Part shown: positions 3,079-9,193 of the stretch, piece after piece
How positions within the stretch are numbered: position 1 is the stretch's first letter
Layout of the letters: each line of letters opens with the position of its first letter
Assembly (NCBI RefSeq): GCF_020217425.1
Contig: NZ_CP084090.1
Coordinates: 372,001-436,000 of the forward strand
DNA: 64,000 bases
Direction: 5' to 3'
Origin: Halomicrobium urmianum
GTDB lineage: Archaea; Halobacteriota; Halobacteria; Halobacteriales; Haloarculaceae
Notes under the pieces: generated by a model
The model's input: the letters and a program-made list of their open reading frames with translations, nothing else
Databases searched by the model: none
What the model was told of the DNA's origin: nothing
Made by a program: the position numbers and the translations under genes

Positions 3079-3945
3079 ATGCCGCGATTGACGACCGTCC
3101 GGACCGGCGTGGTCGTCGTCCTTGCCTGTGTGTTGCTCGCGTCGGTCGGCACCGCACAGGTGACCGCGGACTGCGCCGGGGACGGCGACGGTGCGCTGTT
3201 CGTCGCGGACGGCGGCCTCACCGTGGAGCACGCGGCTGGGACGTCGGTCAGCGAGGGAGAGACGTACCGCAACGCCAGCGCGCTCCGGTTCGGGAACGTG
3301 ACCGTCGTCGCGAGGGGCCCGGCGTCGCTCCGCCTGGACGCCGTCGGGGGGACGGTATGCGCGGTCGACGTGAACGCCTCCGAGACGCCGATCAGGATCG
3401 CAACCGACGGACAGCCGGCGATCACCGTCAGCGGACGGGCGTCCGCGTTCGCCGTCGGTCAGGTTTCGACGGACGACCCGTCCGACGCCGACGTCGCGTA
3501 CGAGGCCGCGGATCCGATCGGCGTCACGCTCGGCCCGCCAGACGGATCTACCGATCGACTGGTGGCGGTCGACGTGGCGACGAGCGAGACAGTCGCGATG
3601 TCGACCGACGACCCGGCCACGCTGTCGCTGCCGGCGGGTCGCCACCGGATCGCGTTCGTCGCCGCGACGACGACCGTCGAGCCGTCCTCGACCGGGTCGC
3701 CGCGCGGCGACTCGACTGCGACCGGCGGGACGGCGACGGCCACGGGGCCAGCGACGACCGCGACAGGGGACGACGCGACACGGACCGCGGAGTCGGGGTC
3801 CCGAGCGACGCCGACGCAGCGAGCGACCACGACGGCGCGAGGAACGACGACGACCGGGAGCGGACCGGGATTCGGGGGGCTCGCGGCGCTCACCGGGTTC
3901 GCGGGCGCGGTGCTACTGGGGATACGACGGAGGAAGCCACGATGA
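3079..3945 (+). CDS. Secreted protein with PGF-CTERM archaeosortase anchor (288 aa)
   Basis: The protein starts with a Sec-type signal (TGVVVVLACVLLASVGTAQV), continues as an Ala/Thr/Asp-rich extracellular domain of about 180 residues, then a Thr/Ser/Gly-rich, probably O-glycosylated linker (about residues 195-260). It ends with GPGFGG, a hydrophobic helix and the basic tail GIRRRKPR. That tripartite tail is the PGF-CTERM signal, which in haloarchaea is processed by archaeosortase A and replaced by a lipid anchor. The stop overlaps the next gene's start by four bases (ATGA), so the two are very likely translated together and may work as a pair on the cell surface. The extracellular domain matches nothing I recognise. 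Confidence 0.85.
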   Translation: MPRLTTVRTGVVVVLACVLLASVGTAQVTADCAGDGDGALFVADGGLTVEHAAGTSVSEGETYRNASALRFGNVTVVARGPASLRLDAVGGTVCAVDVNASETPIRIATDGQPAITVSGRASAFAVGQVSTDDPSDADVAYEAADPIGVTLGPPDGSTDRLVAVDVATSETVAMSTDDPATLSLPAGRHRIAFVAATTTVEPSSTGSPRGDSTATGGTATATGPATTATGDDATRTAESGSRATPTQRATTTARGTTTTGSGPGFGGLAALTGFAGAVLLGIRRRKPR

Positions 3946-6659
3946 CAGACGACGAACTCGCGGAACTCCGACGGCGCATCGAACGGCTCGAACGGGAGCG
4001 GGGCGGCAGCGGCTCCGACGGCGACTCGCCGGACGACGGGGACGAACGGTCCGGGCGACGCGGCGGCCGCGTGACGAGGCGCTCCCTGCTGCAGGCTATC
4101 GGCGTCGCCGGGCTCGTCGGCTACGGCGCGAGCGCCGCGAGCGCAGATCCGCAGGGCCAGCTCGGGACCACGTCCAGCCCGCTCAGGCGCCTGTACCTCG
4201 AGACGCTCGCCGGCGGGCTCACCGGCAGCGACGTCCTCTCCGGGCTCGACGGACCGGGCCTCCGGATCGAGGATGAGACCCTCCGGGCGGTCGTGAGCGA
4301 GGTCGAGAACGCCGGCGACGGCGTCCCGCTCGTCGAGGTCGCCGACGGCCAGGTGGCCGTCCGCTCCGTCAGAGACGGCAGCGGCATCGGCGTGGAGCGT
4401 GACGGGGACGAGGTCGTCGTCGAGAACACGCGCAGCGGCGGCGGCGAGAGCAACGACGGCGAGAACCTCGCCTCGAGCGGAGCGCGCGTGTACGCCGGCA
4501 TGGGCCGCGACACCCTCCAGTTCCGCCGACTGACTGAGGGCACCGGCGTCTCGCTCTCGGAGGGGGACGAGACGGTCGCGACCTCGGCCAGCGGCGGGAG
4601 CAACGATGGCGCGACGCTCGGGAGCGGCGACACCTCGATCTACGCAGGGCTGAACGGGGACACCCTGGAGTTCCGCCACCTCGACGGCGGTTCGAACGTG
4701 TCGCTGTCGGCCGGAACCGACGCGATCACGATCGACGCGTCTGACACCGACACGCACACGGGCGTCTCGGACAGCGGCACCTCGATCCGCTCGGACGTGA
4801 CGGACATCGACTTCGCCGCGAACCTCTCGGTGACCGACCAGGGCGACGGCTCCGTCGCAGTCGACGCCAGCGATACGGGCGAAGCGAACGACGGCGCTAA
4901 CCTCGGAACCGGTATCGGACTCTACGCGGGGAAGTCCGGGTCTACGCTCGAACTCAATTCGCTAGTCGGCGGCTCGAACGTCTCGCTGTCGTCGGCCTCC
5001 GGCGAGGTGACGATCGACGCGAGCGACACCAGGACCGACGTCTCCGACGGCGGGACGACCGTCGCCACGGGCGTCTCCGACATCGACTTCGCTACGGACC
5101 TCACGGTGACTGACGACGGGAACGGAACGGTCAGCGTCGACGCCTCGGTGGCCGACACTCACACGGACGTCTCGGACAACGGGACGACTGTCGTCTCCGA
5201 CACGGGCGACATCGACTTCGCCGCGAACCTCTCGGTGACCGACGACACCGACGGCACCGCCACCGTCGACGCGAGCGACACCCACACAGACGTCACCGAC
5301 AGCGAGGCGGGCGTCACCGTGAGCGACGTCGACGGCGTCGACTTCGGGAGCAGCCTCTCGGTGACCGACGACGGGGACGGCACCGTCACGGCGGACGTGA
5401 ACCTCTCGATCGGCGATATCGCCCAGAACGGCGCCACCGACGGCCAGGTCGTCACGTGGGACGGCTCCGCCTGGAAGACCGACTTCCCGGGGACGACGGG
5501 CGACGCCGCCTTCGACCTCCTGGCCGGCGGGACGCGGGGACTCCGCCTCGACCCCGACAACAGTTCGAAGGCGGTCTCCGTGGTCGGCGGCCACCCGAAC
5601 AACGCCGCCGAGAGCACCGCAGCGGCGGTTGGCGGCGGTGGCCTGGACGCCGACGGCAATCCCAACGTCGTCCACGACTCCGGCGGGACGATCGGCGGCG
5701 GGCGGGGCAACCAGGCCGGAAGCTCGTCGAACAACGAGGCGACCGTCGGCGGCGGTTACAAGAACACCGCGAAAGGCAGGAAGGCGACCGTCGCGGGCGG
5801 GAACTCGAACACCGCGAGCGGTCTGGAATCGGCCGTCGCGGGCGGCTATGGCAACTCGGCGTCGGCTGACTACTCGACCGTCGCTGGCGGGAACTCGAAC
5901 GCCGCCTCGGGGGCCAAGTCGGTCGTCGCCGGTGGAACCACCAACACCGCGAGCGGCCAGGAGTCGACCGTCGGTGGCGGATACAACAACACGGCCTCGG
6001 GGCAGTACTCGGGCGTCCTCGGCGGCATGAACAACACTGCAGGGGGCAATTACAGCGTCGCGATGGGGCGAAACGCCACTGCGAGTCACGCCGGTGCGAT
6101 CGTTCTCGGCGACTCCACGTCCACCGAAGAGCAATCGCAGCAATCGGACGAGGTCCGCTCGCAGATGGAGATGTACGCGCCGGCGTTTAACAGCCCCAGT
6201 GCCCGGTCGAAAAAGGAAGCCATCGATCCGGTCGATGAGGAGTCGATTCTGAAGGGGCTTCTCGACCTCGAGATCAGTACCTGGGAGTACATCGAACACG
6301 ATAACGGCCGGCATATGGGTCCGATGGCCGGCGACTTCGCAGATGCATTCGGTCTCAGTGACGACGAGGAGATGATCGGCGCAGTAGACGCCGATGGTGT
6401 CGCCTTCGCGGCGATCCAGGGCCTCGCCGAGCGCCTCCGCCGGAAGGGCGAGCGCATCGCGGACCTGGAGTCGACCGCCGACTCGCTCCGGAACGAGGCC
6501 GACGAGCTCGAGTCCGAGGTGGACGAACTCGCGGCAGAGACCGACGAGCTACGGGCCGAAAACGACGAACTGCGCGCCGAGAACGACGCGCTCCGGAACC
6601 GCTGTGACGAACTCGAGGAGCGCCTGGCCGCGGTCGAAGCGCGCCTCGGCGGGGAGTGA
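3942..6659 (+). CDS. Tat-exported surface fibre with YadA-like head repeats and a C-terminal S74 self-chaperone domain (905 aa)
   Basis: The ATG at 3942 overlaps the upstream stop. After a 45-residue charged leader comes a twin-arginine signal (TRRSLLQAIGVAGLVGYGA, arginines 46-47) with probable cleavage near residue 68. Residues about 165-490 hold two kinds of beta-rich repeats, and residues about 546-722 hold head repeats of the form GGxxNxASGxxSxVxGG, like those in bacterial trimeric adhesins. Residues about 753-840 resemble the intramolecular chaperone (peptidase S74) domain of phage tail fibres: Ser753 and Lys758 keep the Ser/+5 Lys spacing of the catalytic dyad. The last 70 residues are a heptad coiled coil. 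The inferred role is a trimeric surface fibre or adhesin. The module set is typical of bacteria and phages, suggesting transfer. Confidence 0.85.
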   Translation: MTDDELAELRRRIERLERERGGSGSDGDSPDDGDERSGRRGGRVTRRSLLQAIGVAGLVGYGASAASADPQGQLGTTSSPLRRLYLETLAGGLTGSDVLSGLDGPGLRIEDETLRAVVSEVENAGDGVPLVEVADGQVAVRSVRDGSGIGVERDGDEVVVENTRSGGGESNDGENLASSGARVYAGMGRDTLQFRRLTEGTGVSLSEGDETVATSASGGSNDGATLGSGDTSIYAGLNGDTLEFRHLDGGSNVSLSAGTDAITIDASDTDTHTGVSDSGTSIRSDVTDIDFAANLSVTDQGDGSVAVDASDTGEANDGANLGTGIGLYAGKSGSTLELNSLVGGSNVSLSSASGEVTIDASDTRTDVSDGGTTVATGVSDIDFATDLTVTDDGNGTVSVDASVADTHTDVSDNGTTVVSDTGDIDFAANLSVTDDTDGTATVDASDTHTDVTDSEAGVTVSDVDGVDFGSSLSVTDDGDGTVTADVNLSIGDIAQNGATDGQVVTWDGSAWKTDFPGTTGDAAFDLLAGGTRGLRLDPDNSSKAVSVVGGHPNNAAESTAAAVGGGGLDADGNPNVVHDSGGTIGGGRGNQAGSSSNNEATVGGGYKNTAKGRKATVAGGNSNTASGLESAVAGGYGNSASADYSTVAGGNSNAASGAKSVVAGGTTNTASGQESTVGGGYNNTASGQYSGVLGGMNNTAGGNYSVAMGRNATASHAGAIVLGDSTSTEEQSQQSDEVRSQMEMYAPAFNSPSARSKKEAIDPVDEESILKGLLDLEISTWEYIEHDNGRHMGPMAGDFADAFGLSDDEEMIGAVDADGVAFAAIQGLAERLRRKGERIADLESTADSLRNEADELESEVDELAAETDELRAENDELRAENDALRNRCDELEERLAAVEARLGGE
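4444..5400 (+). repeat. Two interleaved families of protein-coding repeats in the surface fibre gene
   Basis: Three copies of a roughly 50-residue unit (core SNDGxxLxSGxxxIYAG, then GGSNVSLS and IDASDT) begin near 4447, 4594 and 4876. Four copies of a roughly 42-residue unit (core THTDVSDxGTxV, DIDFAANLSVTD, DGDGTVxVDAS) begin near 4756, 5026, 5158 and 5281. The two types alternate. Repetition at protein level is clear; at DNA level the copies have diverged. Confidence 0.8.
5581..6110 (+). repeat. YadA/Hep-Hag-like head repeats
   Basis: About ten units of roughly 15-16 residues with the pattern GGxxNTASGxxSTVAGG follow one another without linkers. This is the left-handed beta-roll head repeat of trimeric adhesins and of many bacterial S74-domain proteins. 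Confidence 0.8.
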
Positions 6660-6663
6660 CTCG

Positions 6664-7530
6664 TCAGTCGGGCCCGCCGTTCTGGAGCCGCTCGGTGGCC
6701 TCGACGAGCGGGTGGTGGGCGTAATCGACGACCTCGATGTCGCTGATCTCCTCCAGCCCCTCCTCCTCGGCGGTCCGGGCCATGCCGAGCTCGACGGGTT
6801 CGTCGAGGACGATGACGTAGGCGTCCATCTCCTCGATGCCCAGCCGATTGGCGGCCGTCGCGCGGTGGTGGCCGTCCGCCAGGAGGAGGTCCCGCTCCCG
6901 GGCGGCGGTCTCGCCGGCGAGCTCGCCGACGGTCGCCCGGTTCTCCGGCGTGGCGCCGCCGTTGTCGATGACGACCAGCGGCTCGGCCAGTCCGCGCTCG
7001 AGCTCGTAGATCCGCCCCTCCAGTTCGTCGGCGTAGACCGTCCCCTGGGTCGGCACCAGGTCGGCGAGGGCCACCTCGCGGCGCTCCTCGCGAGCGTCGA
7101 CCCCGTGGATGGTCTCGAGGGTCCGGGTCAGCTTGTCTACCTTGCCCGGCGTGGCGCGCTCGATCTGCGAGCGGATGGCGTCCGCGTTCGAGATGATCCC
7201 CACGAGGTGACCGGCGTCGTCGACGACGGGGAGCTTCTGGATGCCCGACCGGAGGATCACGCGCGCGGCCTCCTGGACGGCCATGTCCGGGTGCGCGACT
7301 AGAAGGTCCTCGCTCATCACCCGGAAGATCGGCTCGTGGTCCTCCCGCAGGAGGAGGTCCCTGGCGCTGACGAACCCCTCGACGTGCCGGCCCTCGCAGA
7401 CCGGGAAGCCGCTGTGCCCGTCGCTCTCGGCGATACGGCGGGCGACGTCCTCGACCGTGTCGTCCGGCGAGACGGTCGCCACGTCCCGGGTCATGTACTC
7501 CTGGACGCGGGGTTTCGGCTCCTCGCTCAC
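6664..7530 (-). CDS. CBS-pair protein fused to a ParB/sulfiredoxin-fold domain (288 aa)
   Basis: The N-terminal half (residues about 10-125) contains two CBS motifs (VQEYMTRDVATVSPDDTVED and later LPVVDDAGHLVGIISNADAI), which in other proteins sense adenosine nucleotides. The C-terminal half has LVPTQGTVYADELEGRI, EPLVVIDNGG and ADGHHRATAANRLG, the hallmark of the ParB/Srx fold. The same fold is found in the archaeal free-serine kinase SerK and in SbnI, so a small-molecule kinase regulated by nucleotides is a more likely role than DNA partitioning. GTG 7530 was chosen because it directly precedes the conserved CBS part; upstream residues look like out-of-frame sequence. It converges with the fibre gene, four bases away. 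Confidence 0.8.
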   Translation of the reverse strand: MSEEPKPRVQEYMTRDVATVSPDDTVEDVARRIAESDGHSGFPVCEGRHVEGFVSARDLLLREDHEPIFRVMSEDLLVAHPDMAVQEAARVILRSGIQKLPVVDDAGHLVGIISNADAIRSQIERATPGKVDKLTRTLETIHGVDAREERREVALADLVPTQGTVYADELEGRIYELERGLAEPLVVIDNGGATPENRATVGELAGETAARERDLLLADGHHRATAANRLGIEEMDAYVIVLDEPVELGMARTAEEEGLEEISDIEVVDYAHHPLVEATERLQNGGPD

Positions 7531-7588: not shown

Positions 7589-9193
7589 TCAGCAGTCCGG
7601 CCGGCCTTCCCGCCGGTCGGCGGCCTCGCCGTCCCGGTCGCCCCCGGCTGACTCCGCGCCGTCGGCGTCGGAGCCGTCGTCGGTCTCGGCACCGGGGTCG
7701 GTCGACTCGTCCCCGTCGGCGCCGCCGTCGCCGTAGGTGCCGGCAGTGTACTCTCCGGGCGCGTACACCGGCGTCAGCAGGCGGTTCGACCGGGACTCGA
7801 TCGCCTCGAGGAAGCGCTCGTCGACGACCGATCGGACGATCTCGTGGAGCGACTCGTCTCGGTCCTCGATCGAGTCGAGCACGCCGAGCGTGATCTGAGC
7901 GCCGGCCATGTCGGCGTGCCCGCCGGCGCTGCCGATCCGGCCGAAGGCGTCCCGCAGCACCTCGCCGACGTCGAGGTCGGTGCCCCGCGCCCGCGCCGAG
8001 GCGTAGATCGTTCCCTCCATGACGCCGTAGACGAGCGTCGTGTTGACCTCCTCGAGGTCGAGCAGTCGGTCGGCGGCCTGGGCCAGGGCGTCGCGGTCGG
8101 ACAGTTCGCCGATGCAGGACAGCAGCACCGACCCCTCACGGGTCCGGTTGCGGATGGCCCGGGCGATGGTGTCGAGCGTGTCCGCGCCCATGCTCGGGTC
8201 CTCGATGCGCTGGAGGACGCTCAGGTCGGCGTGAGGCAGGAGGTAAGCGGCGGCCTCGAAGTCCTCCGGCGAGACCTCGCGCCGGAACTCGCGGGTGTCG
8301 ACGCTGATGCCGAACAGGAGACCGGTCGCGATGGTTCCGTCGAGCAGCGATTCCGACTGGCGGAGGTAGTCGGCCAGGAGGGTGCTCGTCGCGCCCACGT
8401 CGCTGCGCAGGTCGACGAACCGCGCCTCCACGGGGACCCGCGGCGGGTGGTGGTCGATCACCACGTCGATCGGCGTCTCCGGCGGGAGCTGGTCGTTGAC
8501 CCCTGCTCGGGAGTGGTCGACCAGGGCGAACCCGTCGTACTCCGAGATGTCGGCCTCCTCGTCCAGTTCCCGGAGGTCGAAGTCGAGCACGTTGACGAAC
8601 GCCCGGTTCTCCTGGTGGGTGATCTCGCCGTAGTAACAGACGTCGGTCTCGCAGCCGACGGCCTCGGCGATGCGCGCCAGCGCGACGGCGCTGGCGATGG
8701 CGTCGGGGTCGGGGTTGTCGTGAGTCACGACGGCCAGCCGGTCGCCGACGTCACGCAGGACCCGCCGGAGTTGTCGACTCCGGAGCGACTCGTCACCGAC
8801 CCGCTCGGTGACGTGGTCCGTCACGGCGCGGCCGTGGTCGACGACCCGGTCTGCGACGCCGTCGACCGCCTCGCGGACCGCTGCAGATGCGCCAGGGCCG
8901 GTCGCTGCCACCAGCATCGCGTCGGGGAACACCCGGCGGGCGTTCTCGGCGAGGGCGGCGTTGCGCTCGGGCTCGTCCGTCGCGACGACGACCGAGTCTG
9001 GATCGAGCCCCAGGCCGGCGAGACTCGCCTCGTCGATCGGATCGACCCGCTCGACCCGCACGCCGTTCGACCGGAGCGTCTCAGCCCGGTGCTCGTCGCT
9101 CGTGACCACGAGCAGGTCGCCCCGCCGCTGGGACAGCTCGTCCACGACTGCCCGCCACAGCGGGCCGGCTCCGACCACCAGACGAGAGACCAT
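7589..9193 (-). CDS. DHH-family phosphoesterase with N-terminal TrkA-N-like domain (534 aa)
   Basis: Residues 1-120 form a Rossmann-like domain (MVSRLVVGAGPLW, VVVATDEPERN) similar to TrkA-N nucleotide-binding modules. Residues about 150-460 are a DHH/DHHA1 phosphoesterase: THDNPDPDAIASA (metal-binding Asp/His, 158-164), VIDHHPP (DHH motif at 247-249) and GSAGGHADMAG of the DHHA1 half. Such proteins hydrolyse short oligonucleotides or cyclic dinucleotides, and the family includes RecJ-like and NrnA-like enzymes; this sequence does not reveal the substrate. The tail of about 50 residues is an acidic, disordered segment rich in Gly and Asp. All metal ligands are present, so activity is expected. 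Confidence 0.85.
   Translation of the reverse strand: MVSRLVVGAGPLWRAVVDELSQRRGDLLVVTSDEHRAETLRSNGVRVERVDPIDEASLAGLGLDPDSVVVATDEPERNAALAENARRVFPDAMLVAATGPGASAAVREAVDGVADRVVDHGRAVTDHVTERVGDESLRSRQLRRVLRDVGDRLAVVTHDNPDPDAIASAVALARIAEAVGCETDVCYYGEITHQENRAFVNVLDFDLRELDEEADISEYDGFALVDHSRAGVNDQLPPETPIDVVIDHHPPRVPVEARFVDLRSDVGATSTLLADYLRQSESLLDGTIATGLLFGISVDTREFRREVSPEDFEAAAYLLPHADLSVLQRIEDPSMGADTLDTIARAIRNRTREGSVLLSCIGELSDRDALAQAADRLLDLEEVNTTLVYGVMEGTIYASARARGTDLDVGEVLRDAFGRIGSAGGHADMAGAQITLGVLDSIEDRDESLHEIVRSVVDERFLEAIESRSNRLLTPVYAPGEYTAGTYGDGGADGDESTDPGAETDDGSDADGAESAGGDRDGEAADRREGRPDC

Follow-up and report, generated by a model that had tools for sequence, protein, structure and literature searches.

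The window analysed here is a stretch of 64,000 nucleotides from the haloarchaeon Halomicrobium urmianum, and it contains two overlapping genes on the forward strand. The downstream gene encodes a repeat-rich, fibre-like protein and occurs once in the whole genome. The gene upstream of it, which we call the partner, ends within the start of the fibre gene (overlap ATGA). The features recognized at this locus are as follows.

3079..3945, + strand: partner gene, 288 aa, coding for a signal peptide, then a conserved all-beta dock domain, a linker rich in Ser/Thr and a PGF-CTERM-like tail
3166..3669, + strand: conserved dock domain of the partner (alignment A1; homologous to a provirus domain)
3942..6659, + strand: fibre gene, 905 aa (ORF)
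3942..4073, + strand: N-terminal stretch ahead of the Tat motif, residues 1–44, with a short heptad coiled coil at residues 2–22 (heptad score, fibre alignment)
4074..4145, + strand: Tat-type signal TRRSLLQAIGVAGLVGYGASAASA, residues 45–68 (sequence; RR kept in 19 fibres)
4146..4290, + strand: predicted mature N-terminus DPQGQLGTTSSPLRRLYLETL and the residues after it, proposed docking segment (alignment A3)
4449..5418, + strand: stalk with two alternating repeat families (sequence)
5630..6100, + strand: UspA1/YadA-like head repeats with their flanks, in GGxxNxAS units of 15 residues (phmmer, repeat analysis)
6198..6416, + strand: Peptidase_S74/ICA core, residues 753–825, with the Ser753/Lys758 dyad (profile, alignment, model, Foldseek)
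6417..6656, + strand: C-terminal coiled coil, residues 826–905 (long helix in the model, pLDDT mostly 95–98)

An initial annotation had described the fibre as an archaeal surface protein with YadA-like heads and an S74 self-chaperone domain. Its ORF, coordinates and residue numbers are all exact, including the 153 residues from Ser753 to the C-terminal end, and we confirm that the observation is real and clearly above chance level. It had overlooked what is most conserved in the system, namely the N-terminus of the fibre and the adjacent partner gene.

From one end to the other, the fibre consists of a coil (residues 2–22), the Tat-type signal (45–68), the segment DPQGQLGTTSSPLRRLYLETL, the two-family stalk, eight head units, the S74 core and the C-terminal coiled coil. 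The heptad score of residues 2–22 is equalled by fewer than 1% of shuffles, and most aligned fibres have a coil ahead of the Tat motif. This motif, TRRSLLQAIG, begins at residue 45 and is followed by an ASA site and then by DPQGQLGT. The proposed Tat signal is borne out by the RR motif, hydrophobic stretch and AxA site that TRRSLLQAIGVAGLVGYGASAASA shares with Tat substrates; the RR pair is invariant in 19 fibres, and export by Tat is probable. The Pfam TAT_signal model gave no match on the N-terminus of the window fibre itself. Behind the signal, residues G72, G75, T76 and P80 are invariant (alignment A3, whose first row begins at residue 2). Haloarchaeal secreted proteins commonly use the Tat route, and for this reason Tat use alone does not show that the fibre folds before export, as had been read from the signal.

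The dock domain of the partner is about 170 residues long and defines its own family (alignment A1), with no match in Pfam. A partner structure model of low confidence (pLDDT 62.5, from 3 sequences) gave no significant dock match in Foldseek, and fold likenesses suggested by VIA-align Z scores of up to 7.2 were rejected as no higher than common arrangements give for models of this kind. The tail scores 22.0 bits against NCBIfam PGF-CTERM, below the cut-off of 24.5 (E 9e-5), and a PGF motif, a hydrophobic stretch and a basic end are visible. Relatives of the partner carry other likely anchors: a transmembrane segment in some and, in a single genus, a histidine kinase. In three genomes (G041, G059 and G114) the partner domain forms the N-terminal part of a protein of 943–970 aa, and the single one of these tested (L031, from G041) bears HisKA_7TM and HATPase_c. 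Within a phylum-wide sample of 295 genomes the partner was confined to haloarchaeal members of the same order, and a search of IMG/VR with the partner domain returned no relatives.

To describe how fibre and partner are distributed, 391 haloarchaeal genomes were scanned, with neighbouring genes called by a simple ORF filter. Partner matches were taken at E < 1e-40 and fibre N-terminus matches at E < 1e-20; weak matches of the latter profile resemble generic Tat signals. Strong partner matches occur at 19 places in 15 genomes, and at 18 of the 19 a fibre N-terminus match lies no more than 5 kb away, the exception being G208, where both genes are present and unlinked. All 15 partner genomes contain the fibre N-terminus (hypergeometric p 3e-25, uncorrected for shared ancestry). 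The paired fibres have in common a coiled coil, a Tat signal and the motif DPQGQxGTxxxPLxxLYT. At several loci the paired fibre has no S74 domain and ends differently, with a C1q/BclA-like ending in L221. No fibre was seen near the dock-domain proteins of G208 and L258, nor in the examined part of L224. Judged from these alignments, the gene pair is conserved. Its constant elements are the dock domain and the N-terminus of the fibre, while heads, stalks and S74 domains vary. Binding of the processed fibre N-terminus by the dock would be the simplest reading.

Some loci contain additional small genes. A gene of 90–99 aa lies beside or overlaps the fibre stop in L025 (12974–13246), L248 (6872–7168) and L223 (7148–7426 and 8033–8332), with no Pfam match for the one tested, and in L025 two fibre genes have small HicA/HicB-like genes between them.

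Weaker homologues of the partner are mostly membrane proteins of 550–690 aa. In integrated elements, the C-terminal part of these proteins matches CDS0012 of the Haloferax lemon-shaped virus LSV-48N, and several such elements carry more LSV-48N genes. When the cellular and the weaker (provirus) dock domains were compared, hhalign gave a probability of 99.85% (E 1.4e-30), and reciprocally the provirus dock profile matches the window partner with E 1.7e-16. These profile matches indicate that the dock domains of cells and of LSV-48N-related proviruses are homologous. Five of the elements (L249–L253) have a fibre with Tat signal, coil and GxxGT-type motif nearby; the GxxGT motif is missing from the neighbouring spikes of L225 and L226. 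The dock domain was not detected in LSV-48N itself, whose CDS0012 has a different N-terminus. Virion proteins of LSV-48N have been detected by mass spectrometry (PMC12714723), and comparison of CDS0012 with the most abundant of them gave no certain match. The genome studied here also holds an LSV-48N-related element, integrated in G000:C1 at about 3291000–3306000 (L226) and repeated on G000:C4 (L227, L257). On C4, a dock-like gene is found at 8841, 22918, 36995 and 60804, and the first three are exactly 14077 bp apart, which may reflect a multimer or an assembly effect.

One alternative is that the Tat signal stays uncleaved and anchors the fibre by itself, leaving the N-terminal coil in the cytoplasm; the partner would then be an independent surface protein, or a sensor with another ligand, and the pairing would signify co-regulation only. 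Retention of the coil in most paired fibres speaks for such self-anchoring, as this would be odd for a segment merely discarded with a signal peptide. We nevertheless regard it as unlikely, since an ASA-type site with an invariant motif right behind it suits a processed mature N-terminus, and the fibre/dock pair recurs in proviruses. Docking of a processed N-terminus by the partner is the reading retained below.

Beyond the docking segment, two kinds of stalk repeats are seen at about residues 170–490, in line with the two alternating families noticed earlier. The head contains eight GGxxNxA(S/G/K) units at residues 586–701, spaced by 15 residues from residue 604 onward and visible in the DNA as a repeat of period 45 with 5.7 copies. 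Although adhesin-type repeats are indeed present and match UspA1 heads of known structure (3pr7, phmmer E 2e-20), Pfam YadA_head reaches 17.3 bits on the fibre, under its cut-off of 25, and the head is better called UspA1-type than YadA-like. Comparison of the whole fibre with phage records gave weak stalk-repeat matches and nothing else.

The S74 assignment was examined with profiles, alignments and structure prediction. Pfam Peptidase_S74 (cut-off 22) is passed by residues 721–905 (23.9 bits, E 5e-5) and just missed by the full fibre (21.0 bits, E 4e-4). S74 is matched by each of the 57 sequences in an archaeal and bacterial alignment, of which the window fibre is one, and the columns of Ser753 and Lys758, five residues apart at the spacing claimed for them, are invariant in 57/57. 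An AlphaFold2 model of residues 721–905 (pLDDT 85.8) has the MyRF ICA domain 7dc3 as its top PDB match (probability 1.00), followed by endoNF 3gw6 and 3gud. The scores against 7dc3 (Foldseek E 5e-3, VIA Z 5.2) are both moderate, which would be expected of a single chain taken from a trimer. The expected final coiled coil appears in the model as a long C-terminal helix, so that an ICA fold followed by a coiled coil is predicted for the end of the fibre. The combined comparisons support an S74/ICA domain with an intact dyad in an archaeal, probably Tat-exported, adhesin-headed protein.

In MyRF, substitution S587A or K592A abolishes cleavage; these residues correspond to S911 and K916 of endoNF, likewise at +5 spacing, and MyRF cleavage requires the trimer (PMC8326128). 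With an invariant dyad, an S74 match, a model resembling these domains and a residue pair whose equivalent is indispensable in MyRF, self-cleavage of the fibre at Ser753 is likely by analogy. The presence of a dyad is no proof of activity, and an S74 relative at L046 (5970–7145) has exchanged both catalytic residues (Ala and Arg in the alignment); the domain could therefore act in folding only, with the coiled-coil tip retained. Conservation of both Ser and Lys in every one of the aligned sequences makes such a loss of cleavage in the fibre distinctly improbable, and we continue with a self-cutting S74 domain.

The archaeal S74 domain had been singled out as notable. It is real, but the window is not unique in having one, since 22 of 391 haloarchaeal genomes pass the Pfam cut-off. 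A tailored profile finds about 30/391 at E < 1e-20, a limit imposed because the count from one class-wide profile (143 genomes) was swollen by coiled-coil matches. We found no paper on S74 in haloarchaea in the open-access literature. By their sequence features the proteins can be sorted into three types: type A, with coil, Tat signal and QGQxGT motif and with the partner present; type B, with a Tat signal and without the coil, QGQxGT or partner features; and type C, in which no signal was recognised and of which one locus has a T4 gp19-like tail-tube gene immediately upstream. The Tat-type S74 proteins of L208, L210, L212 and L215 have neither docking motif nor partner. The tail-tube arrangement is that of L030 (5278–6586), and homologous genes are arranged in the same way in L034. 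Other S74 proteins without a recognised signal (L022, L028, L037) adjoin a small Tat/lipoprotein-like gene with a Gly/Tyr-rich end (YGxxxYGxxGYGG-like). In L029 (3278–7305, G043) a fibre gene is apparently split by an insertion with a TnpB-like gene into an N-terminal part (3278–3892) and a C-terminal S74 part (6661–7305).

A bacterial origin had been suspected for the modules. Archaeal S74 domains lie on one side of a branch and 24 bacterial rows on the other (bootstrap/SH-aLRT 99/93), and the base composition of the locus is ordinary; a recent bacterial transfer is therefore unsupported and was dropped. The S74 relatives in IMG/VR are distant and occupy a branch of their own. The S74 domains of type A fibres do not form one clade (AU p 1e-43); ends have therefore been exchanged among haloarchaeal fibre types while the docking pair was retained.

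We propose, as a reading that is rather probable, that the overlapping genes encode a Tat-exported trimeric surface fibre and a dedicated dock that holds its N-terminus, with S74 as an exchangeable, self-cutting folding cap. The fibre would leave the cell by Tat, and the coil ahead of the signal might join three chains prior to export. The C-terminal S74 domain and coiled coil would then register the three chains and drive folding of stalk and head, after which S74 would use the Ser753/Lys758 dyad to cleave at Ser753 and release itself, like endoNF and MyRF. Cleavage of the signal peptide would create the new N-terminus DPQGQLGT..., and the partner, kept at the cell surface by its PGF-CTERM-like tail, would bind this N-terminus with its beta domain; for anchoring, relatives would use a transmembrane segment or a histidine kinase, and the kinase found in one genus could sense the state of the fibre. 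The docking pair would stay constant, and head and chaperone would be exchangeable. The trimeric state, the cleavage, the binding of fibre to partner and a function in attachment are what we infer here. It is very unlikely that the pair is instead a chromosomal viral attachment module, either left over from a lemon-shaped-virus relative or carried by one as cargo: the homologous dock and the Tat/coil fibres of LSV-48N-related proviruses, and the presence of such an element in the same genome, point that way, but the locus is surrounded by metabolic and signalling genes, the window yielded no LSV-48N homologue, and cellular partners carry a PGF-CTERM-like tail or histidine kinase and not a viral membrane part.

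A wider version of the docking proposal, which we put forward tentatively and consider doubtful as a whole, would make the fibre-dock pair common to cells and lemon-shaped-virus relatives. The N-terminal coil would zip three Tat signals together in the cytoplasm, where the S74 cap would fold and proofread the trimer; the fibre would be exported folded by Tat, and its N-terminus captured by one beta domain mounted on a surface anchor or histidine kinase in cells and on a virion membrane protein in viruses. If these proposals are correct, haloarchaea possess a modular two-gene display of trimeric fibres in which an adhesin-type head is combined with a self-cleaving chaperone of phage type and a dock that has no Pfam match; this dock would be common to cells and an archaeal virus family, and one genus would have it connected to a kinase. 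The pair would also allow a concrete test of whether Tat can export a homotrimer assembled beforehand, and would suggest how LSV-48N-related viruses may attach.

The window fibre resembles endoNF, the T5 L-shaped tail fibre and MyRF in the C-terminal position of Peptidase_S74/ICA, the Ser/Lys pair at +5, the long C-terminal coiled coil and the predicted fold. Unlike these, it is archaeal, apparently exported and attached to a UspA1-type head, and its cleavage is putative. Bacterial secreted proteins from Verrucomicrobiota, Chloroflexota, Planctomycetota and Lysobacterales likewise join head repeats to S74, in the same HxGPMA...DADGVALAAIQGL form; by inspection they differ in having mostly Sec-like signal peptides and another N-terminal domain, and no haloarchaeal docking motif was detected. 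UspA1 and YadA, the trimeric autotransporter adhesins, share the head repeat type, but the window fibre ends in S74 and a coiled coil in place of the C-terminal beta-barrel translocator and anchor of type Vc proteins, and has the proposed separate dock instead of a YadA-type membrane anchor. With LSV-48N the likeness lies in the related proviruses, which bear the dock domain on a CDS0012 homologue with a Tat/coil fibre nearby, whereas cellular partners carry other anchors. Finally, although its tail scores below the family cut-off, the window partner resembles haloarchaeal PGF-CTERM surface proteins: it begins with a signal peptide and has a linker rich in Ser/Thr before a PGF-type tail.
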